A stretch of DNA of 64,000 nucleotides, taken from positions 62,001-126,000 of the forward strand of contig JAQMWT010000524.1 of NCBI GenBank assembly GCA_029834535.1, in the 5' to 3' direction. This document shows, piece by piece, positions 6,321 to 19,499 of this stretch. Within the stretch, counting starts at the first letter, position 1. Every line of letters begins with the position of its first letter. The translations under genes and the position numbers were made by a program. This stretch comes from Chrysophaeum taylorii (lineage: Eukaryota; Sar; Pelagophyceae; Pelagomonadales; Pelagomonadaceae). Below the pieces are notes generated by a model. The model worked only from the letters and a program-made list of their open reading frames with translations, searched no databases and was not told the origin of the DNA.

Positions 6321-6634
6321 CTAACTAACTAACTAACTAACTAACTAACTTCAGACCTCTCCCGAGCATGGGAGCCAGGCCGGACCGACAGGAGCCAGTC
6401 CGGAATCACGGGCCTGTAGACGAGGGGCGCCGAAAGGTGGGTCGGCGGAGAGTGATCATCAAGCTTGTCGCCATGCGACGAGGAGACCGCGATGTGACTG
6501 ACAACCAACTCGTCGATAACCTTCCGTCTGCGCCCCCCGGCCATACCCCGTCCCACTGCGAACGTTCCGGCTGCCAACCGGCCCGCCCGAGAGGCGAATA
6601 GGTGCCAACCTGCGCCGGGAGGGCGGATGCCCTC
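6321..6634 (-). mobile_element. SINE-like element, copy A (minus)
   Basis: This roughly 315-bp unit is the reverse complement of the one at 12968-13282, with about nine substitutions and one 6-bp gap between the copies by eye. Its 5' end begins GAGGGCATCCGCCCTC, a small hairpin, and its 3' end is a (TTAG)n tail, seen here as (CTAA)n at 6321-6350. An open frame runs through both copies but only follows the shared DNA and is probably not a gene. No clear target duplication is visible around this copy. The about 300 bp between it and the LTR element (6635-6936) contain nothing I recognise. Confidence 0.75.
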
Positions 6635-6936
6635 GCAAGGCTCAGGATTCATGAGGCACCGTTCTCCCTCGTAGCAGTCGACCTTTAATAAATAACCCCA
6701 ACGCACCCACCACCCTTAGCAGGCGACCATTAAAACCCCCGACGCTGGATGGAGGAGTTGACGTTTAAAAGCCCTAGTCTGCGGGCTTATTAGTAGTTTG
6801 AAGGGGGCTTCTGGCCGTCTCAGCCGATGTCTGCGCAGCCGTCTGCGCCACAGCCATCTGTTGCTGGCCCTCGGTAGGCTCCAACGCGAATGGAATCGGG
6901 TTCCGATTACTTTCCGACTCACCACACCCGGTCCGA

Positions 6937-6941
6937 CCGAG
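6937..6941. repeat. target site duplication, left (CCGAG)
   Basis: CCGAG abuts the 5' LTR and is repeated exactly at 17466-17470 after the 3' LTR. Five bases is the usual duplication length for Ty1/copia integrases. Confidence 0.85.
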
Positions 6942-7142
6942 TAGAGATAGAAAATCTGAATTAGGGTTAGTTAGTACCCCTTATTCTAGGGCTAGTTCTC
7001 TTAACTTTGCCACCTTTCATTTAAGAAAACGCTGTTTTATTCACACCGGCTGTCCTCGATTATAAGAGACAGATTCGAGGACAGACCACCACTGTTCTCA
7101 CGCTCTGCTGAAGGGTAACACAGTTGTGATTATTGTTCTCTA
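6942..7142 (+). repeat. 5' LTR
   Basis: A 201-bp repeat matching both parts of the split 3' LTR. Shared landmarks are TAGAGATAGAAAATCTGAAT at the start, a GTCCTCGA...TCGAGGAC inverted pair in the middle, and GGGTAACACAGTTGTGAT near the end. The boundaries are set by the short inverted ends TAGAGA/TCTCTA and the flanking CCGAG, not by the usual TG...CA. Confidence 0.88.
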
Positions 7143-7147
7143 GGTAT

Positions 7148-7163
7148 TGGGCACCAGTCCCGG
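7148..7163 (+). other. candidate primer binding site
   Basis: TGGGCACCAGTCCCGG begins five bases inside the 5' LTR end. TGG would pair with a tRNA CCA terminus. The matching tRNA was not identified, so this rests on position and the TGG start only. Confidence 0.35.
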
Positions 7164-7227
7164 TATCAGCAGAGCCCCAGGATTCCCAGACAAGCCCCGC
7201 TCACTGACGTTCCTGAACCCAAGCAAA

Positions 7228-8451
7228 ATGCCAACCAATCAAGAACTCCAAAAGGAGATAAGAGAACAAGATGCTCGGCATAAACAAGAAGCTCAAGCGT
7301 ACGAAGCTCGGCATAAACAAGAGATGCAAGACCAAGAAACTCGCTTGATGGCACAATTCACTGCTCAATTAAGCGCGTTGGCCACCCAAGTGCAAGCAAC
7401 GCAAGCACCACCACCTGCCGTCGCTGCTGCGGCTCCGCCTCCCACTCCGGCTCAACAAGATCCCAAGTCTAAGGTTAACACCTTTAGTGACCCACCTAGC
7501 GCCGTCCTCAAGTCGATGGACAACGCTCAAGTCACACCCCAGATGCTTTCATTTCGCGTCATGCAATTGTTCGTCGAACATCTGATGCCTGAAACAGGCA
7601 TAACTCAGTACTTCCTACAGGGCTTCTACACGTGGGAATCCGTCCTGCGCGGATCTAACGATCTCGCCGACGCTCTCCTAAGCCACTGTATCGACGAATA
7701 CGACAAGGACCCCGACAACCACTCTACTGCCGGGAACACGCCAGATTTCCAAGGCCGTTACGTCTACTGCAAGGGTGTCTACCGCAAGTTCGGCAAGCAC
7801 TTCCTGGACAACGTCTACGAGCCAAAGCTCCAAGAACTCAAAGCCAAAGACAAGGACCCGACCGATATGACAAAAGGCAAGTTATATCCAATCACCCAAC
7901 CCCACCTCCAAGGAAAAGAAGCCGACTTCATCGTATATCTCCGCGAGACCGTACACCCCCTATTTCGCCGTTTTCTACATGCCGGTAGCGACTCCGTCAA
8001 GCACCCAGCATACGACGAAATCGATGCACTCGGATCCTCCTACCCGATAGGACTCGAATTTGTGCTTCAAGTTCGCCGAGCACTCGACAAGCACACGGGC
8101 CAGAACCACATCCATCATGCGCATTATGTCTATAATGCCTTTCTGGACACGCCGTTCAACCTCGAAATACATGAGCCTGCTCACTACATCGACTACATGC
8201 GTCATGTCCAGCAGCAACTGCGCCAGATAACCACCGACGCTTCTCTCCAACTTCCCGACGACAAGATTCTCGAAGAAATTCTTCGCTTCAAGTACCCCCC
8301 AAGCTTGCTTGACTCCCGCGCCCCAACACACATCAAGGGCTTTGCACGTCTTGCTAACTGTCTGCGCAATCCCAACGACTCGCTGTTACTCGACGAAGAC
8401 AAGGAAGCCATCCACCACCTTCCTAAGCTCATAGCTCGCATCACCGTATGA
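7228..8451 (+). CDS. retrotransposon Gag-like protein
   Basis: A 407-aa intact frame, the first gene of the LTR element. The ATG at 7228 is the first in frame after the LTR. Residues about 5-60 form a charged heptad-like stretch (EIREQDARHKQEAQAYEARH), then an Ala/Pro-rich linker, then about 300 residues of alpha-helical-looking sequence with Trp, Tyr and His in the style of copia capsid domains. No CCHC knuckle is visible in this frame. It would form the particle that packages the element RNA. The frame ends at TGA 8449-8451, and coding-like sequence continues in another frame, so Gag was probably longer before a frameshift. Confidence 0.7.
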   Translation: MPTNQELQKEIREQDARHKQEAQAYEARHKQEMQDQETRLMAQFTAQLSALATQVQATQAPPPAVAAAAPPPTPAQQDPKSKVNTFSDPPSAVLKSMDNAQVTPQMLSFRVMQLFVEHLMPETGITQYFLQGFYTWESVLRGSNDLADALLSHCIDEYDKDPDNHSTAGNTPDFQGRYVYCKGVYRKFGKHFLDNVYEPKLQELKAKDKDPTDMTKGKLYPITQPHLQGKEADFIVYLRETVHPLFRRFLHAGSDSVKHPAYDEIDALGSSYPIGLEFVLQVRRALDKHTGQNHIHHAHYVYNAFLDTPFNLEIHEPAHYIDYMRHVQQQLRQITTDASLQLPDDKILEEILRFKYPPSLLDSRAPTHIKGFARLANCLRNPNDSLLLDEDKEAIHHLPKLIARITV

Positions 8452-9243
8452 CACCTCTCCCTCTGAAGACGACACCCCACCGGACCCCGTTGAAGACACC
8501 GACCCCGTCGCTGTTTTTCTCACGGAGGCCAACCTTGATCAAGAGGAAGACAATGACCTCAATCACCAGCTCCACGCCTACCGCAAGAAACAAATTTCGC
8601 GGCACCTCAAGAAGCCCCCTCCAAGCAAAAAGCCTCCTATTCCTCGCTCCCCGTCTTACTACGACACCAATGACAGTCCTAAGCCCAAGGGCACCCCTGT
8701 CACCCCACCGAAGAACAAGCACCGTCCCCGCGCTCCTCCTGTCACCCCTGACAAACGCGAGCAATCTTCGCAAGGTCACTTTCCCCACACATCCTCATTC
8801 ACCCAAACCATCTACTCCTGACCTGCGCTGCAAAGTCCCCCTTCGTGAAGTCCGTCGCAAGCTCCAAACCATACGGAATCTTAGCCAAGCCGGTCGCCAA
8901 CATACGTCCAGCTCCGAGCACATGAACAAGCTAATCAACCTCATCACCACAATCTCCGATGAGATACTTCTCTCCGAAGCCGAAAACGACGCCGCCGAAT
9001 TCCTCCAGATGTTAACGTCCGATCCCCAGGACGATCCACCTGATGAGGGCGAAGCCGAAACCGATGAACAAGACGACAAAGGACGCCTCGGTTTCTATGA
9101 CGACCACGGTCAGCTAGACCTCTACGACGGCACCATTCCCGAAACCACTCCCGAAACCAATGATGAAGATGACTCCGCCGAAGACTACGCAAAACGTCAC
9201 AGTGACTACATGCGTGCTCTCCACCAGAGTCGGCTTTTTCGCT
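8452..9243 (+). pseudogene. Gag C-terminal tail / linker, frameshifted
   Basis: Directly after the Gag stop, another frame continues with acidic and then basic low-complexity sequence (SEDDTPPDPVEDTDPVAVFL, then Lys/Pro-rich) to a stop near 8821. A third frame then carries an acidic stretch including EAENDAAEFLQMLTSD and DEGEAETDEQDDKG to 9243. These look like pieces of one protein tail broken by two frameshifts. The basic Lys/Pro section could replace a zinc-knuckle RNA-binding region (inference). No catalytic motif is present. Confidence 0.5.
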
Positions 9244-9429
9244 GATGGTTGCCGACGACGCCTGTGCCGCCAACCACATCTTACTCCATCAGGCACCAAA
9301 CCTCAAGATGACGAATTTCCCGACCTCATCAACTATCTCACCCAGAGTCGCAGATTTTCTTTGTGCAACTTACACTCCAGGAAGACCTCAAAGAAGACTA
9401 ACTCGCTGCACGGATGCAATGGACCCGGC

Positions 9430-9720
9430 ACCGAAACCTCATTGATTGACGGTGGCGCATCTTTTGCTTTACGCGCACAATTCAAAACTTTGTTCCTGAG
9501 ACCATACGCCGAATTCCCGAACACACCATTCATATGGGACGAGGCACCCTCACCAGCCACTTCATCGGTGTTAAACCGTTGTATCTGCAGGCTGCAGGTC
9601 TCTCTTCAAAGGATACAAAAGACACAACCGGTTACGCTTTATATCTCGTATTTATGGTCGTCCCGCAATTCAGGCAAGGTCTTCAAGTTATCGCAACATC
9701 TCAGCTCAAAGCTCTGCATG
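9430..9720 (+). pseudogene. retrotransposon aspartic protease, frameshifted
   Basis: The active-site loop appears as SLIDGGASFAL (Asp codon 9448-9450) where D-S/T-G is usual; Gly in the second position is atypical. The second half is in a different frame after about 9530, with GRGTLTSHFIG and FMVVPQFRQGLQVIATSQL. The latter matches the copia-type stretch with pattern VLYVP..R.NLISV.QL that follows the protease. The enzyme would cut the polyprotein. One frameshift separates the halves, so this copy is inactive. Confidence 0.6.
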
Positions 9721-11321
9721 TACAAGCAACAGACCCGCCACTGCCCCACGAGCCCTACCTTTATGAGCTTCTAAAGTCCTCAACCTCCGACCCCCACGAT
9801 TATGCAACACTTCTAGGAAAGACCGCCGTCGTACTCGCCACTCGCAAACCAAACGGCCTGTTGTCCCTGCCATCCCATCCAAAGCAAACATTCGCCACTG
9901 TGCTCAGTTTCCACACAAGAAAACGAATGTCACTCAAGGATGAGATTGCACACATCACACAGCATGTCGCAAAGACACGCTCACAATCGCACATGCTTGA
10001 TTTCGCTAAGTTACAGAACCATTCTCTGTATCTCAACGAACTGCTCAACCTCCAACATCCTGTCGTCCACTACGCCTTCAATGGCTCAGCAGACCTCTCT
10101 GTGCAAACACCAACCCCTCTGCTCAAAACAGCCATTATTGCAGGTGGACTTCACCAGGAAGGTTTCGACACTTTTCGCAAACGATTCGACAAACGCCTTA
10201 CTGTCGTGGTCACCTGCGAAATCAACGATATCCTGCGCACCCGTGCGCAACAACTCTCCCCGCACGCCCAGCACTATGCGGACCTAAGAAAACTCAATGC
10301 CGCACTCCAAACCGGCAAAATACGACTCCCTACATTCGACCTGGCAGTTTTTACATTGCCCTGCCAACATCTGAGTGTAATGAAAGAATACGACGGCTAT
10401 GCCACTCCGGTCACCGCCGACCTTTTCGTCAAAGAACAAATCCGCTTCGTTCGTTGCACGCTCCCGACCTATGCCATTGTCGAGAACGTACCTCCCAACC
10501 CCCGAACTCACCACGAGTATGCTCAACTCGCCAAAGGCTATCAGCGCTTAGGCTACTTCCGCCACTCCGGCGTCTACAATGCCTCTGCTTTTGGTGATGT
10601 CATCAGCAAGACACGCTATCTCGCTGTGTATGCCCGGCACCCGCTCACCGGCTACAACCTCGAGAAACCCGCCTCTACTTGGTTAACCTCGCCTCCGAGC
10701 ATGGTTCCTCTCCTGGACCCCAGTCACACCATCCCTGACGATCTCTGGATCGCCAAACCCGCCGTTCGTGGTACAGTGCCCCGCTCCACATTGGACTACT
10801 ACCAGCACAAGGCCACCTACCCCTACAAGCCCGCCAACGCCTCGAAACTCTCGATTTCCGAGAATGCCCGCATCTGCCAAATGCTCGCACGTCTCACCAA
10901 GCCCTTCACGGATCTCGGTCTAGATGCCGACGGCACCCCCTACGCCGCAATGGCGTCCATTTCCCACCTCCTGGTTTTCACACTCCTGCACAACCATTTG
11001 TCGCAACACCCCACTCTCACCGCTTGGAACAACATCCGCTGTTTTCACGCATCAGAGTCTCAGTGTGCTTACCATTTGGATGGAGCCATCACCGGCACCG
11101 CCGCTACTGCCGTCGCATGTGGCTACTTCTCGCGCGCCTCCCTCACACTACATTCCAGGCCCCCTCAGATTTTGGACTGTTCCCATCAACCCGCAGTCTT
11201 CTCCCCAACGCACTCTCTTTCCCTGGATGTTACCAAGGGCACCGTCTTTCTGGTCGTCGCTTACACCACCTCCTTGGCCGCCGCTCACAGCTGTTCGCTC
11301 GCGTCCAGGTCCACTATATGA
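9534..11321 (+). CDS. C5-cytosine DNA methyltransferase (motifs I-VIII) with internal 2OG-Fe(II)-like domain
   Basis: A 595-codon frame in the middle of the retrotransposon polyprotein; the ATG is only the first in frame, since the protease C-terminal half precedes it here. Motif I is IIAGGLHQEGFDTF (near 199-212). Motif IV is FTLPCQHLS with the catalytic Cys at 277. Motif VI is ENV at 317-319, and motif VIII is KTRYLAVYAR. The family transfers methyl from S-adenosylmethionine to cytosine C5. Residues about 460-580 are not a normal target-recognition domain. They read WNNIRCFHASESQC, then HLD (His514, Asp516), a CGYFSRASLTLHS strand, and a second His at 560 followed by KGTVFLVVAYTT. This is the HxD...H layout of 2OG-Fe(II) dioxygenases of the TET/JBP-like type. 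The Arg that usually binds 2OG is not at its expected place (Lys568 is nearby). Motifs IX-X follow in another frame. Confidence 0.8.
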   Translation: MGRGTLTSHFIGVKPLYLQAAGLSSKDTKDTTGYALYLVFMVVPQFRQGLQVIATSQLKALHVQATDPPLPHEPYLYELLKSSTSDPHDYATLLGKTAVVLATRKPNGLLSLPSHPKQTFATVLSFHTRKRMSLKDEIAHITQHVAKTRSQSHMLDFAKLQNHSLYLNELLNLQHPVVHYAFNGSADLSVQTPTPLLKTAIIAGGLHQEGFDTFRKRFDKRLTVVVTCEINDILRTRAQQLSPHAQHYADLRKLNAALQTGKIRLPTFDLAVFTLPCQHLSVMKEYDGYATPVTADLFVKEQIRFVRCTLPTYAIVENVPPNPRTHHEYAQLAKGYQRLGYFRHSGVYNASAFGDVISKTRYLAVYARHPLTGYNLEKPASTWLTSPPSMVPLLDPSHTIPDDLWIAKPAVRGTVPRSTLDYYQHKATYPYKPANASKLSISENARICQMLARLTKPFTDLGLDADGTPYAAMASISHLLVFTLLHNHLSQHPTLTAWNNIRCFHASESQCAYHLDGAITGTAATAVACGYFSRASLTLHSRPPQILDCSHQPAVFSPTHSLSLDVTKGTVFLVVAYTTSLAAAHSCSLASRSTI

Positions 11322-11950
11322 ATCGTTCGCATCCTGGCTTTGCCGTGATCGACTCACAAGGGCGAATTGCTCTCGATGACCCTAAGGGACTCATTATGTC
11401 CAAAGCACGTCCCACTTACGCGGACTATGTCGGCCACATCGGAGACACGCTTCAGAAGAGCACCAAGTGCTACTCGGTCACTGGCTCGTACCCCACCAAC
11501 ACGAGCTACTCCAGCGCCTTGCTGCTGATCTCTCCAGACCACATCCGCTACGCGACCCTCAACGAAATCGCAAAGTTTGGACACCACTCGGACCCGGAAC
11601 TGCTCCGACTGTTCAAACAGCACCCGCCGTACTTCGCGTTCAAGGCACTGGCCAACGCCGTCCCGCACCACATGCTGCAGGCAAAGTACAGCGCTGTCCT
11701 CGCATTCCACGAATCGCACCACCACGTGAACTTTCACATAGAATGGGCAACAATACGCAATGGCATCCCCAGCCCAGGAGACATCACCCAGGTTGCAGAC
11801 TTCTTCATGAGCATCTCCAGCCGTCTCTTAGCAGAGGAAGACCTGAACCTCACCTCCCTCTTCAATGCCGTTGCAGATGCTCACCATGATGCGATCCGCA
11901 AACCAAGCAAATCAACAAGCCTCGAGACGCTTCTTGCCGAGGCAACCGTT
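11290..11950 (+). pseudogene. methyltransferase C-terminal part (motifs IX-X), frameshifted
   Basis: After a frameshift near 11280-11320 the second coding frame carries IRYATLNEIAKFG (about 11543-11580; motif IX pattern R..T..E) and FKALANAVPHHML (about 11638-11676; motif X pattern GNAV). These complete the methyltransferase fold begun in the preceding frame. About 90 helix-rich residues follow before the integrase. The frame itself stays open through the integrase start to a TAA at 12434-12436. No classical slippery heptamer is visible at the break, so a mutation is more likely than programmed shifting. Confidence 0.7.
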
Positions 11951-12009
11951 GCTAAAATCCGAGTCGACAAGCGACCCAGCCCCCCCAGCGCTTCGACTGC
12001 CGCTCTGCC

Positions 12010-12967
12010 TCCCTTGCTCCAGCCCGGCACCACTCAGCACGCCAAAAGAATGCTTTTGGTCACTCGCAGGCACCGCATACACCACCAGCAACCAGAGATT
12101 CTTCGCCGCACGATTGCCGCTAATGCAACGAATCTCCGCCCAGGTGATGATCGGTATCTGCAAGACTGCAGTGAATGTAAGCGCTGCCAATCGCATATAA
12201 GCTTCAGTCACAAAAACAATTCCTGGTCACAGGATGAACTGGCCTATGCTCCTGGCCAACACCTCCACATGGATGTGTCATACCCGAGCATCCGCAAGTA
12301 CTACGGCGGATTTCGCTATATCATGCACTTCGTGTGTATTATCTCAGCACACAAATGGGTCTATTTCCTATGGAAATTAGACGCACAGGATGTTCTGGCC
12401 GGCATCCTCTATGTGGTCAATGTGATTAAAGTCTAATTCGATGTCCATGTGAAGATCATATCATCTGACGCATTCTCAACATTTCGCTCTGAAGCGTTCC
12501 ACCCTCTCAAGGTGCAGCTTGGTCTCCAATTCCAAATCCTTGGTCGCCACACACATCCACCAGCGAAACTTTGCTGAAAACATTATCAAGGAAAACACCC
12601 GAGACACCGTAGTACGTCTCCTCAACCTTCGCAGTGTACGCATCGAAGGAAAGTCTATTGCCGCTGAGAATTATCACCCATTTGCTCTCCTGCATAAGAT
12701 TCAAGCCGACAGCCAGCGCTCTCATGGACTGCCCTCGCGCACAAACATGACATGCACCGTTCCCCGGCGTATCACGTCACCCATGGCACCGCTCTTGAAG
12801 CTTCTCCCCTTTGGCGAACCTGTCACTTTTGTCTACCCTCAATTTAGGCTCAAAGTCACAAGCTGGAACTCCAGCGTCTCCGCCTCTTACTTTCATAGGA
12901 ACAACTATCTCCGGAACCTCCCCGGAACGGACCGATTTATTCAAGATGTTCACAGCTCTATCTTGCG
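12010..12967 (+). pseudogene. copia integrase, broken
   Basis: The N-terminal zinc region is visible as RRHRIHHQ...CSECKRCQSH (HHCC type). The catalytic core follows: PGQHLHMDVSYP (first Asp near 12272) with GGFRYIMHFVCIISAHKWVYF, then after an in-frame TAA at 12434-12436 KIISSDAFSTF (second Asp near 12466), then after a frameshift near 12545 HQRNFAENIIKE (catalytic Glu). A later piece, FGEPVTFVYP, matches the copia C-terminal domain. The SINE-like copy B interrupts the frame at 12968. The enzyme would insert element cDNA; this copy cannot. Confidence 0.8.
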
Positions 12968-13282
12968 AGGGCATCCGCCCTCCCGGCGTAGGTTGGCACC
13001 TATTCGCCTCCCGGGCGGGCCGGTTGGCAGCCGGAACGTTCGCAGTGGGACGGGGTATGGCCGGGGGGCGAAGACGGAAGGTTATCGGCGAGTTCGTTGT
13101 CAGTCACATCGCGGTCTCCTCGTCGCATTGCGACAAGCTTGATGGTCACTCTCCGCCGACCGACCTTTCGGCGCTCCTCGTCTACAGGCCCGTGATTCCG
13201 GACTGGCTCCTGTCGGTCCGGCCTGGCTCCCATGCTCCATGCTCGGGAGAGGTCTGAAGTTAGTTAGTTAGTTAGTTAGTTA
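12968..13282 (+). mobile_element. SINE-like element, copy B, nested in integrase
   Basis: This unit is flanked by an exact 9-bp target duplication, CTATCTTGC, at 12959-12967 and 13283-13291. The coding sequence of the retrotransposon reads on across the duplication if the unit is removed. It starts with the GAGGGCATCCGCCCTC hairpin and ends in a (TTAG)n tail (about 13258-13282), as expected of target-primed retroposition by a non-LTR partner. It has no gene of its own, and no clear RNA polymerase III A/B boxes were found, so it may be a SINE or a 5'-truncated LINE tail. Confidence 0.8.
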
Positions 13283-13291
13283 CTATCTTGC

Positions 13292-13930
13292 TTGTACATC
13301 AAGGGCGGTATGGAAAAATCGCCACCTCTAACGACTTTCATGTTGACGCAGACATGCCAGTCAACCGTAACAAGGAGATCGAACGGATCAAAGCAAGCAC
13401 TCGCACAGATCCCAACAGAGGCTCGACAAGAGGACCCGCTACCAGCTATAAGCGAACAGCAAATGCCGGAAGTTAGACAGGAATCGAAAAATGAGGGCGA
13501 GACTCACGAAGACGAGCACGATGATAAACCTAGCGATGACGACGAACACAAAGAACCGGATCCAACTCCCGCTGCTGATTCAAGTCCCGTCAGCGACGCG
13601 ACACCTGAACAGGATTTTTCGTTCCTCAATCGGCCACCTCCGCCGGATGGTAGCATTCCGATGCCCAAACGAAAAGATCGCCTAGAGGTTGTTCTCGACG
13701 ATTCAGGTTTTACTCCAGTTCTCGTGCATCGCAACCAGAGCGATAAGCTCAAAGCAGATCTCAATGACGAACGTGGATTTCGCATCCCTAAGGATCAACT
13801 CTATATCGTGAAACGTGTTGACGATGGAAACTCTTCACCAGACGCATTATCGCCTCAGAGTATGGTCGCAACTGGAAATACCAGCAGGAGCAATCCACGG
13901 CTCACGCCACAGCCAACATGTCCAGCACGT
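13292..13930 (+). pseudogene. integrase-RT linker, acidic
   Basis: Immediately after copy B the polyprotein continues as a hydrophilic linker. A short frame has GKIATSNDFHVDADMPVNRN (end of the copia integrase C-terminal region). The overlapping 13292 frame has an acidic stretch (EDEHDDKPSDDDEHKEPDPT), then basic KRKDRLEVVLDDSGFTPVLV, and stops at 13931. Such linkers between integrase and RT are normal in copia elements. No catalytic motif. Confidence 0.5.
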
Positions 13931-15498
13931 TGATGTTCCTCATCAGTGTCAGCGCTCTGCACCAGGGCCACGCCGCCAGCATCGCCTCTGCTCTCAACAT
14001 TCGAAGAGATGCTAAGCCGCCTAATGATGTCCCGAAAGGATGTCTCCTAGCAAGTACCACACAAGACTATGGTATCATGGGCGGCACCGCACTGGATTTG
14101 CAGAGAGAAACCGACGCAGAACTCTTGTATGTTGACTTCCCCAGGAAGCCATACCACTCATCTGTGTTGGTTGACCACCTTGATAACGGCAATTCTGTTC
14201 TCGAGAACTATGTGTGCCATGACGAACTGTCACCGGCAGAGTACTATGCGCGTCAATGGAACCAAGAATTCTGTTGTATGGGTTCCTCTCTTTTGTGGGA
14301 CATCTCCGCGCATCAACACTACCATCTAGCTTCTCGTCACAGGCATGCCTTCATGCATGATTCTGGCGAACTCGGACACCTCTTCCTAAGTCAAAGTGAT
14401 CCGAATCAAGATATTCTACATGAAGTCATGGACTATGATTTGCAGCACATCGATCACGTCGTGTTACAGCTCGTGACCGCCGAAGATATTGTCTATGAGC
14501 CCGAAAAGATTGTCGAACTCAAAGGACTCAGCGAAGAAGATAAGTTAAAGCATATCGCTTCGATTCGCAAAGAAATTGAAGGATTGTGCTCCAATGGTGT
14601 CTTCAAGCTTGAACCTTTACCGCCCGACCGTACGTCTATCTCGACGAAACTCGTGCTGAAGGTCAAATAATTTGCTGACGGCACTCCGGACCGCTATAAA
14701 GCTCGTCTAGTCCCCCGAGGTTTCTTGGCACGTGTAGGCATTGACTTTTATGCCACCTCCTCCCCTACCGCAATGCTTGCCACCAACAGGCTACTGCTCG
14801 CCATCGCTGTGAAGCACAAGCCCCCGGTCGCGCACGCGGACATTCCTCACGCATTCATCCAATCGGCACTCGATCGCCCAGTATGGATCGACTTTCCTCG
14901 AGGAATACATGTCTCGCCAAATCTTATCCAGCAGATACAGAAGAACCATCCAGAGTCGAAGCTCGCTCTCCGACTCGTCAAGGCTCTCTATGGCCTCAAA
15001 CAGTCAGCTTTGTTGTGGAACATCAAACTCGACTCGTTTCTTCGACAACATGAGTTCGAACGCTCACAAGTCGACACTTGCCTCTATATCAATTGGGATC
15101 GATCTATCAACAAATGGGTATTACTATCCGTTTCAGTCGATGACCTATTGATCACTGGTACCAACACTGCCAAAATTACATCTCTTCGCACCGCTCTGGA
15201 GACGGAATATGGCAAAGGTACGTGGCATGACAACATCAGATCCTTTCTTGGCATCGATGTTCACTACAATGTCTCCGCTGGTCATCTCACTATGAATGTA
15301 GCAGCGAAGATCACCAAGATGCTTACTGAGCATAAGCTCAACCTACATAGTCTGGACGTCCCCTATTCGGACATCCTCACCCAAAAACCTTGTACTAAAT
15401 TTCTCTCAGACTTGGCTGCTACCTTAGACGTATTACCCCAAAACTTCCCCTTTCTACTGTGGCACCCGCATTTACTTGTCAGTCACATGTCGGCCTGA
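13918..15498 (+). pseudogene. copia reverse transcriptase (RVT_2) with one in-frame stop
   Basis: Two consecutive blocks in one frame are separated by TAA at 14668-14670. Upstream, about 250 residues end in RTSISTKLVLKVK, the usual entry to the copia RT. Downstream are DRYKARLVPRGF, HADIPHAFIQSAL (first catalytic Asp), LRLVKALYGLKQSALLW and LLSVSVDDLLITG (the Asp pair, near 15138). These are the landmark motifs of the RVT_2 family, which copies element RNA into cDNA. Frame integrity is lost after about 15450. Apart from the single stop, the polymerase core is well preserved. Confidence 0.9.
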
Positions 15499-16253
15499 CA
15501 TCACCACCTTGTGCAACAAATGCTGCAACGGGATGCACAACCCCGAACAAACACACCTTCTGCACTGATATGTTTTACTTCGCTTCTTAAAGGGCACTCC
15601 GAACGACTCACTCGACTATTCATCCGACAGCCCCTCTATTACACCTTTTATTCAGCATCTGATCACCCGCTATCCTGAACTGCATCACCTTCGTTCACCT
15701 ATTATCTGTTTTACTGATGCAAGCTTTGCTGATCGTTCTGACCCTCGCTTACGATCCAATTCTGGTGCATGTATCTTCCTTCGTCTTTGGCAATCTCGTA
15801 TTTTGGTCTAGCAAACGACAAACCCTTACTGCCAAAAGCACCATGGAAGCTGAACTCATCGCCACCAGCGCAGGCGCTGATGAATGTCACTGGTTCTACA
15901 AGCTTTTCTCATCTCACCCCTATCTGTTTTCATGTGACCAAGCTCACGCTATCCCATTGCTTCTTGATAACGCTAGCGCACTACATGTCGCTAATCACCC
16001 TAAAGTCAGTGCTCCTTCTCGTCATATCAATTTACGAGAATTTCGCATTCGTGACTACCAAGCTAATTCGATCGTTACTCCTCTCTGGTGTCCTACTCTC
16101 TTCCAGGTCGCTGATCATTTTTCGAAGCTCCTTCCACGCAACTTGTTTCACAAGTTCAAAAACGCCTACGGCGTCCACTCCACTTCATCCTCAACACCAT
16201 CACATCAAGTTACTCTTTCGGCTACTCGCGTAGAGATAGAAAATCTGAATTAG
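15499..16253 (+). pseudogene. copia RNase H domain, frameshifted
   Basis: The first part (ITDASFADRSDP... type, ICFTDASFADRSD near 15706) is in one frame. After a shift near 15770 the rest reads WSSKRQTLTAKSTMEAELIA, then LLLDNASALHVANHP and VADHFSKLL. Together these give the Asp, Glu, Asp and Asp set of the RNase H that removes RNA from the cDNA hybrid. The last frame runs 22 bases into the 3' LTR before its stop at 16251-16253. No purine-rich tract is obvious just before the LTR. Confidence 0.85.
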
Positions 16254-16322
16254 GGTTAGTACCCCCTATTCTAGGGTTAGCTCTCTTAACTTTGCCACCT
16301 TTCCTAACTACTAATCGACAGA

Positions 16323-16325
<3 letters not shown>

Positions 16326-16361
<36 letters not shown>

Positions 16362-16370
16362 TTGTTTGTC
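16326..16370. repeat. (TCTG)n/(TTTG)n microsatellite
   Basis: A simple tetranucleotide run at the left side of the insertion in the 3' LTR. Confidence 0.95.
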
Positions 16371-16454
16371 CCTCGATTTAGGGTAAGGATCATGTAGGCG
16401 CGAGAGTAAGGATCAGGTAGGCGCGAGAGCCAGACAGTGATCCTCCAAGCCGTC

Positions 16455-17012
16455 TACGGCGACCTCGCAGACTATTTCCACGACCCGCGGCGGCTCTTTA
16501 GCCAGCGCGCCATTCTCGCCCCGTCGAAACGATGTTGTCGATGCTGACAACGCGCGCATGACCGCGGCCTTTTTTCCCGGAGACGAGGCGTCGGAGTTTT
16601 TCGGCCGACTAGGTTGTCGGAAGCCGACGCCTCGCTCTTTACAGTCGAGTTTTGAACTCATGGACAACCAACGGCATGCTGACTTTGATCGCGAGCTTAA
16701 AGTCTTCGCAACCTCGACCCGTCGCACGGCCACTGCAACGGTACCAGATACATGATCGATCGTGTCGTTTCACTGAGGCTCCTCCAGCCTGTATCCCTTA
16801 AGGCCCGCCGACGCCAAACGATCACCAAGAGCCAGGGCCAGACGCCCCGCGAGGTCGGCGTCCTCTTGGCGAAGCCCGTCTTCTGCCACGTCCAGCTCTC
16901 GTGGCTCTCTGTCGATCGGCAACCCCGAGTATGGCTCCTGAGTCGACGACTCACCCTACCCAACGTGCTGCGCAATACCGATAAGCCCTCCCCGCGTCTC
17001 CACGCGCAGTGA
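16455..17012 (+). mobile_element. Helitron/PIF1-type helicase remnant
   Basis: Inside the 3' LTR insertion, the plus strand carries C-terminal helicase motifs of Helitron Rep/Hel proteins in shifting frames: DPRRLFSQRAILAPSK, then DVVDADNARMTAAFFPGDEA, then LRNLDPSHGHCNGTR, and then ITKSQGQTPREVGVLLAKPV. The order and spacing match the PIF1-like helicase of Helitrons, which move by rolling-circle replication. Frameshifts and stops show it is dead. Only the helicase tail is present. I could not identify clean 5'-TC and CTRR-3' Helitron ends. Confidence 0.75.
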
Positions 17013-17049
17013 AAACCTACGGACCGCAACTCGCCGTTTTATCAGATCA

Positions 17050-17335
17050 GGTGAACTAGTGACCGGTGAACTTACTGAGACCAAGTGAACTTACAGGTGT
17101 TAGAGTGAACGCAAAGGCGAGCGGCGTGTACGGATCAAAGCAGCTTAGATTGGCGGAGGTGAGAGCGACGAGCTCGAAGGAGAGTGGGGGGAGTGGATGT
17201 GAGCACGAGTGGGCTTACACCGAACTTACTGGGGTTAGAGATTGGGACTAGGTGAACTTACTGGGGCCAGGTGAACTTACTGGGGTAAGAGATTGGGACC
17301 AGGTGAACTTACTGGCGAACTTACTGGCCTGCACT
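17050..17335. repeat. degenerate tandem repeat around GTGAACTTACTGGGG
   Basis: At least seven imperfect copies of a short unit around GGTGAACTTACTGGGG, with GAGATTGGGACCAG spacers, fill the right part of the insertion in the 3' LTR. They might be the subterminal region of the inserted element. Confidence 0.75.
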
Positions 17336-17465
17336 TGTTTTGATTTAAGAAAGAAAACGCTGTGTTGTTCACACCAGCTGTCCTCGATAAGAGATTCGAG
17401 GACAGACTACCACTGTTCTCACGGTCTGTGCTGAAGGGTAACACAGTTGTGATTACTGGTCTCTA

Positions 17466-17470
17466 CCGAG
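17466..17470. repeat. target site duplication, right (CCGAG)
   Basis: Exact copy of 6937-6941, immediately after the 3' LTR end TCTCTA. Confidence 0.85.
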
Positions 17471-17625: not shown

Positions 17626-19221
17626 TTAGTGAAGGTAGTAGTTCAGGGAGCAGTTAAAGGGCCCGACGAAATTGGCGGAACGTTGGAATACCGGGGCGAG
17701 GGCGGAGAGGGGCTCTTCCCCAAAATGGAGGAGGGGTTTGTAGGAGTTGCGGCGGTTCTCGTCCATCGCCAATCGGAGCACGGCGTCGACGAGAGGCGCG
17801 TATTCGGGGTTGGTCGCGAGGTTATCGCGCTCTAAGGGATCGGTCGTGAGATTAAAAAGCCACGTCGGACGAAGAAGAAGAGGAGGTGCGCTGCCGATGC
17901 AGGACTGTTCGCCGGAATAATTAATATCCGGGTCGTAATAGTCCGAGTTGTTGTAGACGCCGTGGAGGAGCTTGATGCCGTCGTCTCTGATCGCGACCGC
18001 GTACGTGTCCCCCAAACCCACGTAGAGGAGGGCGCGGCGGTTGATATTTAAAATTTCGTTTTGAAGGAATGGCCAATGATTGACAGAGGAAGTCTCATCA
18101 TCATCATCGAGGGTGCCGCCCGCGACCGCGAGGAGCGTGGCCAGCCAGTCGACGTGGTGTGCGAGGTTAGGGTACTCTGTCCCCCGGGCGGACGCGGGAA
18201 GCGCCGAGCCGGCGACGATCGCCGGAACGCGAATGCCGCCCTGAAAGTAATTGAACTTGCAGCCGCGGAGAGGGTAACTTGTACCAGCGAGATTCACGCC
18301 GCACGGGTAGGCGCCGTTGTCGCTGTGAACGACCACCAAGTAGTCGCCTCGACGACGAACTTTTTTTTTCTTTACCGCGTCGACGACGGCGCCGACGCGG
18401 GCGTCGGTCAAGCGGACGCCTTCTTCGAAGGCGTCGCGCGGAGACATTTTGATAAAGCCCTCGTTATCGTGGGGGCACTGGAAGGCGACCCACAAAAACA
18501 GCGGTCTGACGGCCTCTTCAATCACCGAGAGTGCCCTTTCCTCGAATATCTCGTCGCTAAACCTTAAATCCGTCACTCTTTCGAACAAAGATTCGGTAGC
18601 CGCGAACAAGTCAACGTGCCCGTCTTTCGTGAGGTGCGTGACGTAGTTGATGCCGCCGCTAAAGTACCCAACAAAGCTGTCGAAGCCCCGCGCCATGGGT
18701 AAATACGCGTCGTTGCAGTGACCGATATTCCATTTGCCCGCGCCGTGCGTTTCGTAGCCTTGGTCTCGAAAGTATTCCGGCAAAAGCTTGACTCCGATCG
18801 GTATCGAGTAGTTCGAGGACGGATGAATCTCGATATCGGAAGGCAAGATCCGCGAAAACCCGATCCGATGCGCGAACAACCCGCTCATCAGCGATGCCCG
18901 AGCCGCCGAGCATACCGGTTGTCCGTAGTACCTCGACAGAACCACGCCCTCCAGCGAAAGATTTTTGAGCGTCGGCGTCTTCGCGTCGTCCAGCCCGACG
19001 TCATCCAGCGTGATTAGGATAATGTCCGGACGACCACTTCTTTTTTCGAGCTCTGTGGTGGTGGTGGTGGTGGTGGTGGTGCTGCCGCGAACAACAACAA
19101 AGTCGAGCCCCCGGCTCCCCACGAACACCCCAGATGCCGCGATCGCTGCTGCGACCGCGCGCCCAAGTCGACGACGACGACGACGACGGTTCGCACCCAC
19201 CAGCAGCGGGGCACCCTCCAT
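17626..19221 (-). CDS. arylsulfatase-like sulfatase, membrane-anchored
   Basis: 531 aa from the first in-frame ATG (19221). An Arg run precedes a hydrophobic segment (about 20-37), probably a signal anchor. A poly-Thr stretch coded by a GGT/ACC repeat follows. The sulfatase fold begins at PDIILITLDDVG (metal-binding Asp73-Asp74). The formylglycine signature is CSAAR at 104-108; Cys104 is present, and Ala replaces the usual Pro. DNG and PLRGCK...QGGIRVP are also present. The lysine-histidine motif GKWHLG reads GKWNIG, so the catalytic His is Asn165. The length and C-terminal region fit type I sulfatases of the arylsulfatase B group, which hydrolyse sulfate esters on glycans. It starts about 280 bp from the divergent histidine-kinase gene. 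Activity is uncertain because of the His-to-Asn change. Confidence 0.88.
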   Translation of the reverse strand: MEGAPLLVGANRRRRRRRLGRAVAAAIAASGVFVGSRGLDFVVVRGSTTTTTTTTTELEKRSGRPDIILITLDDVGLDDAKTPTLKNLSLEGVVLSRYYGQPVCSAARASLMSGLFAHRIGFSRILPSDIEIHPSSNYSIPIGVKLLPEYFRDQGYETHGAGKWNIGHCNDAYLPMARGFDSFVGYFSGGINYVTHLTKDGHVDLFAATESLFERVTDLRFSDEIFEERALSVIEEAVRPLFLWVAFQCPHDNEGFIKMSPRDAFEEGVRLTDARVGAVVDAVKKKKVRRRGDYLVVVHSDNGAYPCGVNLAGTSYPLRGCKFNYFQGGIRVPAIVAGSALPASARGTEYPNLAHHVDWLATLLAVAGGTLDDDDETSSVNHWPFLQNEILNINRRALLYVGLGDTYAVAIRDDGIKLLHGVYNNSDYYDPDINYSGEQSCIGSAPPLLLRPTWLFNLTTDPLERDNLATNPEYAPLVDAVLRLAMDENRRNSYKPLLHFGEEPLSALAPVFQRSANFVGPFNCSLNYYLH

Positions 19222-19499
19222 CTCCAAAAAAGTGCTACATCGGTCTCCTTCTTCTTCTTCGGAAATTGTTTTTTCGGACTCTTTAACGGACGACGCCAAA
19301 CGGATCGCGCCAGTTCGTGCTCTTTTTTCCGGTGGTGGGTGTAGTAGCCGATCGATCGAGAAGCGACTTTTTAATAACCAACCCTCCTTATGATGATGGC
19401 CGTTTTTGCAGGAATCGCTTTTCTTCTGCGTTTCTTCAAATTCTCTTCGAGAGTCAGCAGAGGAGGGGTTTTCCTTATTAGAAAGGAAAGGAGGCGGCT

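Follow-up and report, generated by a model that had tools for sequence, protein, structure and literature searches.

Background

Few retroelements carrying a cytosine methyltransferase have, to our knowledge, been described. DNA methyltransferases (DNMTs) in LINE, DIRS and Gypsy elements were published in 2018, and in the excerpts of that paper considered here the copia elements of Symbiodinium are without any DNMT (PMC5890265). A preliminary description of the present locus, made from the sequence by itself, had referred to captures of such enzymes by retrotransposons in other algal and protist lineages; as a kind this precedent stands, although the carriers in the same excerpts are LINE, DIRS and Gypsy elements and not copia.

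The system of the Gypsy type is KnitGypsy-Dnmt3 of Klebsormidium nitens, which likewise has a C5-cytosine methyltransferase (C5-MTase) within the pol of an LTR element, in several copies and under purifying selection. According to the excerpted text it combines a Gypsy element with an MTase of the Dnmt3 family (PMC5890265), whereas the element presented here is a copia element and DNMT3 chains are absent from the PDB matches of its MTase. The systems of Symbiodinium, SymbioDIRS-Dnmt3 and SymbioLINE-Dnmt, are likewise element-borne C5-MTases of an alga, present in many copies and long kept, and the MTase of SymbioLINE-Dnmt is also an orphan, as here; they are, however, DIRS and LINE elements with a tyrosine recombinase or an endonuclease, in the same excerpts (PMC5890265).

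A 2025 paper states in one sentence, citing the 2018 paper, that DNMT3s occur in 'LTR Copia and DIRS' elements (PMC12344493). This sentence names copia as a carrier, but it refers to DNMT3 in streptophytes and dinoflagellates, and its source, as excerpted, says Gypsy. With the exception of that sentence, no paper describing a copia element with a C5-MTase was found in the open-access literature, preprints excluded. Fungal DNA transposons carrying TET/JBP are likewise mobile carriers of a gene whose product acts on 5-methylcytosine; these are DNA transposons with an oxygenase, and the excerpted source found no such retrotransposon there (PMC12730594). An element-borne DNMT is a known kind of arrangement; new in the present case are the copia setting, an MTase that does not look like DNMT3, the spread over four clades and the altered sister forms.

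Structure of the element

The window, that is, the whole stretch of 64,000 nucleotides of Chrysophaeum taylorii that was analysed, contains a copia LTR element on the plus strand at positions 6942-17465, flanked by a 5-bp target duplication (CCGAG). The order of its parts is 5' LTR, gag-like region, protease region, MTase, a conserved stretch of ~95 aa, integrase, reverse transcriptase (RVT_2), RNase H-like end and 3' LTR. The features, in window positions, are the following:

6937-6941: target-site duplication CCGAG, 5' side, read from the sequence (3' side at 17466-17470)
6942-7142, plus strand: 5' LTR (TAGAGA...TCTCTA), 201 bp
7143-7159, plus strand: putative primer-binding site, a 17-mer repeated across the genome
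7144-9245, plus strand: gag-like region, overlapping frames 7144-8451 and 8427-9245, named by position
9361-9744, plus strand: protease region, motif IDGGAS where expected, assigned by motif and without a profile match
10116-11003, plus strand: C5-cytosine methyltransferase domain, Pfam match over the first part, through motif VIII
11016-11288, plus strand: conserved domain of ~95 aa
12077-12961, plus strand: integrase region, first part, from alignment to the L010 copy
12962-13282: inserted 321-bp repeat
14671-15495, plus strand: reverse transcriptase (RVT_2), Pfam E 2.7e-37
15663-16253, plus strand: putative RNase H-like end of pol, assigned by motif only
16231-17465, plus strand: 3' LTR in two parts (16231-16303 and 17351-17465), split by an insertion at 16304-17350

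The RVT_2 domain, an integrase placed before the reverse transcriptase (RT) and an LTR pair with target-site duplication, the features of Ty1/copia membership, are all present. The position of the integrase ahead of the RT in the window element comes from the alignment to the L010 copy, where rve was matched with an E-value of 0.0061, below the cut-off. The 17-mer directly 3' of the 5' LTR was identified at 84 exact sites in the genome and the control at 0. In Pfam searches the gag-like region gave no family above its own cut-off and the RNase H-like end gave no match. The usual protease motif is D-S/T-G; the motif IDGGAS, at window positions ~9440-9470, is found with few exceptions among the aligned copies.

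The window copy is an old, broken element, as indicated by the divergence of its LTRs (90% and 87% identity over pieces of 81 and 122 aligned places), by frame changes at several places of pol and by the insertions of 321 and 1047 bp. In two other copies the LTR pair is identical at 192 of 199 (L021) and 185 of 196 (L024) compared places. The 321-bp repeat of the integrase region has a second, inverted copy adjoining the element at 6326-6639 and was also identified in L012, L015, L017 and L023. For the 1047-bp insertion in the 3' LTR, partial matches were obtained in L011 and L022. On the other side the element is adjoined by a 623-aa frame on the minus strand (17626-19497), sulfatase-like by eye.

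The methyltransferase domain

The preliminary description had placed a C5-MTase between the protease and the integrase of a copia element and had proposed a profile search as a check. The placement is confirmed by a PF00145 match in the 623-aa frame at 9450-11321, with an E-value of 4.7e-8 (33.3 bits, cut-off 22), and by the order of the domains, which is as described. The match spans profile positions 45-156 of 324, that is, through motif VIII. The dcm superfamily of NCBIfam was also matched (E 3.7e-7), below its cut-off.

The positions of the motifs were taken from the alignment to the L010 copy: the GG of motif I from 10143; the Cys of motif IV (PCQ) at 10362-10364, which is residue 277 counted from 9534 and agrees with the Cys277 named beforehand; the Glu of motif VI (ENV) at 10482-10484; and the Arg of motif VIII (SKTRYLAV) at 10614-10616. 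The canonical order claimed for the motifs stands for I, IV, VI and VIII. Motifs IX (KLSISENARICQM) and X lie beyond the PF00145 match; inspection by eye and an alignment with other copia clades make them plausible. In the window's clade the predicted catalytic signature is intact, with the Cys of PCQ, the Glu of ENV and the Arg of motif VIII. AlphaFold2, run on the MTase stretch of the window as a single sequence, gave a mean pLDDT of 30 and was uninformative.

Copy number and place in the element family

The genome searched comprises 70,800,356 bases in 697 contigs, with 57 matches of PF00145. Two of these are separate host genes (C634 and C621); of the remaining 55, 54 overlap a match of the element's MTase and the last one, on contig C216, adjoins the element's next domain. 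The element MTase as a query gave 139 matches among the matches listed (131 of 633 candidates scored). Merging pieces less than 1500 bases apart, the genome search with the window MTase resolves into 129 element MTase loci among the matches listed, a slightly high count since contigs C10/C297 and C25/C521 share hits at near-equal coordinates and a few loci are counted twice. PF00145 was over the cut-off in the 11 copies scanned, without exception.

A set of 59 near-complete RT copies was selected from 152 RT matches (start at residue 1, reach of at least 235, identity of at least 62%). A listed MTase lies on the same strand within 9.5 kb upstream in 47 of them, at a median distance of 3276 bases, and three more (C216, C322 and C490) contain the element's next domain at the right place, so 50 of the 59 present the MTase or its neighbouring domain where expected. 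Three of the other nine were examined, and because the missing part extends past the MTase, to pol residues 1066, 1258 and 1323, these copies are truncated or deleted rather than an MTase-less form. The case in which other family members lack the domain, considered in the preliminary description, is not the one found: the C5-MTase is a regular part of the copia element family and not a single-copy insertion.

Conservation and selection

Conservation was counted in an alignment of 22 full or partial copies of the window's own clade (clade A). The Cys and the Gln of motif IV were each identified in 21 of the 22, and the Glu and Asn of motif VI and the Arg of motif VIII in all of them. For MTase motifs I-VIII the median pairwise dN/dS was 0.28 at dS <0.1 (12 pairs), then 0.22, followed by 0.18 (dS 0.2-0.4), 0.14 (0.4-0.7) and 0.12 (>0.7, 98 pairs); here and below the pairs overlap, so they are not independent. 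The MTase resembles the protease, where the median fell from 0.31 to 0.12 with rising dS. The corresponding values were 0.50 (3 pairs) to 0.09 in the integrase, 0.31 to 0.06 (9 pairs) in the RT and 0.51 to 0.18 in the ~95-aa domain. The clade A MTase is kept under purifying selection.

Diverged forms in clades B, C and D

Beyond the clade A family the nearest RTs are only 42-44% identical. In clade B (C560 and C214) the same place in pol holds a stretch matching the clade A MTase profile, with hhalign E-values of 1.3e-8 (C560, from motif I to VIII) and 2.8e-4 (C214). Its active site presents AECT in place of PCQ and EEM in place of ENV. Used as a query, the clade B stretch recovers the window's family (22-27% identity, E down to 1.8e-14) and also other copia loci (E 7.5e-8 and weaker), and those read belong to clade C (C338, C483 and others) and clade D (C42 and C118). 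In these two clades motif IV is SPCT or PPCT and motif VI is MEM or AEM; motif VIII is canonical-looking (YQARERW, YQSRERW). The MTase stretch is still open in many copies of clades B-D, and the clade D MTase as a query of the genome gave at least 150 matches, the best 150 of 958 candidates being scored.

One clade D protein reached 20.5 bits against PF00145, below the cut-off of 22; the profile search found no PF00145 in three other clade C/D proteins covering the MTase stretch, nor in either of the two clade B proteins. A clade D protein alone found no MTase in the PDB, and the clade A profile gave no significant match to single clade C or D proteins. The alignment of eight sequences from the four clades has 10 invariant columns, which include the Cys of motif IV, the Glu of motif VI and the Arg of motif VIII. 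The joint four-clade profile gave 22 matches in the PDB: the first 19 are C5-MTases, 14 of them with E <0.001, and the last three are antibody chains with E >1. The best match was 3qv2 (1.1e-7), and the others include HhaI (from 2.2e-6), HaeIII and DNMT2; no DNMT3 chain was identified among the 22. From these sequence comparisons the element MTase is called an orphan type that does not look like DNMT3.

A diverged form of the C5-MTase, as judged by profile and motif, is present at the same pol position in three more copia clades, and for this reason the MTase in copia looks old rather than freshly captured.

Host methyltransferases and relatives

The two host genes differ in arrangement: C634 contains PF00145 over its length and is Dnmt2-like by eye, and C621 contains PF00145 together with SNF2, the DNMT5 arrangement. 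Neither was retained as a donor, the single-sequence hhalign comparisons giving E-values of 0.006 (C621) and 0.092 (C634) and no close similarity. No relatives were identified in viral contigs with the window MTase, alignment A1, a clade D MTase and the RT of clade A as queries, nor in prokaryotic genome contigs with the clade D MTase; these are virus and prokaryote collections, so the result says little. The genome assembly also contains a plastid contig with psaA and psaB. The PDB chains closest to this psaB are presumably photosystems of the red lineage, and the host is on that account taken to be an alga with a red plastid.

Origin and function

The proposed origin is that a C5-cytosine methyltransferase became part of the pol polyprotein of a copia lineage, placed between the protease and the integrase, and that this would have occurred once, in the common ancestor, before the four copia clades of the genome separated. 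As a part of pol the MTase would sit within the particle near both cDNA and RNA, and it would most likely methylate cytosines of the element's own nucleic acid, the cDNA first, before or at integration. DNA is the first guess for the substrate because DIRS-type element DNMTs methylated CG in yeast, according to the excerpted source (PMC5890265). Taken together, one acquisition before clades A-D split, retention under purifying selection and a likely methylation of the element's own nucleic acid form the reading that we favour and hold to be reasonably probable.

A bolder form of it is offered tentatively, as a possibility on which we would not yet rely. An orphan C5-MTase would have entered copia pol once, before RT identity fell to ~35%, and would have become a permanent enzyme of the particle; the canonical site would be kept by one clade and the others, with PCT/EMT, may have turned to another substrate (perhaps the element RNA or the tRNA primer), and the MTase and the ~95-aa domain would be a module as old as the lineage.

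The preliminary description had gone on to suggest self-methylation of the element's DNA as a possible means of evading or setting host silencing. Support for this was sought in CpG-specific decay, and none was found in the element copies: transitions per C site were 0.0685 at YpG, 0.042 at YpA, 0.0466 at YpC and 0.0754 at YpT, those at YpG being no commoner than those at YpT. The observed/expected CpG ratio of clade A (the window and nine copies) was 1.01-1.09, lower than in the window flanks (1.26 and 1.29) and not below 1. It was 1.06 and 1.08 in clade B, 0.81-0.92 in clade C (three), 0.89-0.95 in clade D (three), 1.42 and 1.33 in two host-gene loci and 1.22 in L029, which contains a copia element that looks MTase-less by eye. 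The difference between elements and flanks is not taken as methylation decay, since GC content differs and YpG transitions are not in excess.

Given that clades B-D suggest a fold kept with an altered site, a different substrate and a structural role both have to be taken seriously as rivals. The MTase fold could have been retained in the polyprotein for a purpose other than methylation, for instance to bind nucleic acid or for the folding of pol; this would accord with the absence of a CpG signature and with the altered PCQ and ENV of clades B, C and D, where the stretch is nevertheless open in many copies. We consider it unlikely, however, as all eight sequences aligned from the four clades keep the Cys and the Glu of motif VI, and PCQ and ENV hardly vary within clade A.

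Two or more independent acquisitions, each by another copia clade but at one and the same spot of pol, are suggested by the MTase identity of just 15-20% between clade A and clades C/D, whose direct comparison is without significance. Against them, the pol position is the same, clade B connects clade A to C and D, and RT similarity orders the clades in the same way as MTase similarity does: RT identities are 42-44% between A and B, 60-63% between C and D and 34-37% between A and C/D, with 22-28% over a part for the RT of L029. The stretch following the MTase is also loosely similar in A and C/D, a weak resemblance. Separate captures are accordingly given a small likelihood, and the single acquisition is preferred.

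Dnmt2 methylates tRNA, and the element MTase could similarly act on RNA, for example the element RNA or the tRNA primer. The best match of the joint profile, 3qv2, is presumably an Entamoeba Dnmt2, and DNMT2 chains are among the weaker ones; HhaI, a DNA enzyme, is however nearly as good a match. RNA is discussed as a substrate of the LINE-type enzyme in the excerpts of the 2018 paper (PMC5890265), but a tRNA for the putative primer-binding site was sought here and none was identified, and an RNA substrate appears improbable. A chance insertion of an MTase gene into the window copy alone is refuted by the 129 loci among the matches listed, the selection and the fixed place, and retains practically no probability.

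With the single acquisition as the preferred reading, the copia MTase is a long-kept one, present at 129 listed loci in clade A and in at least 150 matches for the clade D query. The host alga also has DNMT5-like and Dnmt2-like genes, and a methylome study of this alga would need to allow for an element-borne enzyme besides those of the host. As a natural series in which the active site is canonical or altered while its place in pol stays the same, the four clades can be used to test the benefit of the MTase to a retrotransposon.

The domain after the methyltransferase

The conserved stretch of ~95 aa at 11016-11288 follows the MTase directly, and a Pfam search gave no family match for it. A TET/JBP oxygenase, proposed from a resemblance, is not supported: besides the Pfam result, no oxygenase was identified in the PDB search and the host Tet_JBP-like gene shows no significant match to the domain. 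As for the ligands H-x-D, H and R, the first H is represented by 17 H and 4 Q, and the expected R by 17 A, 2 V and 1 L. The gene at L025 1033-2562 (contig C548) encodes 509 aa, with Tet_JBP at 0.0015, below the cut-off, and ILEI just above its cut-off.
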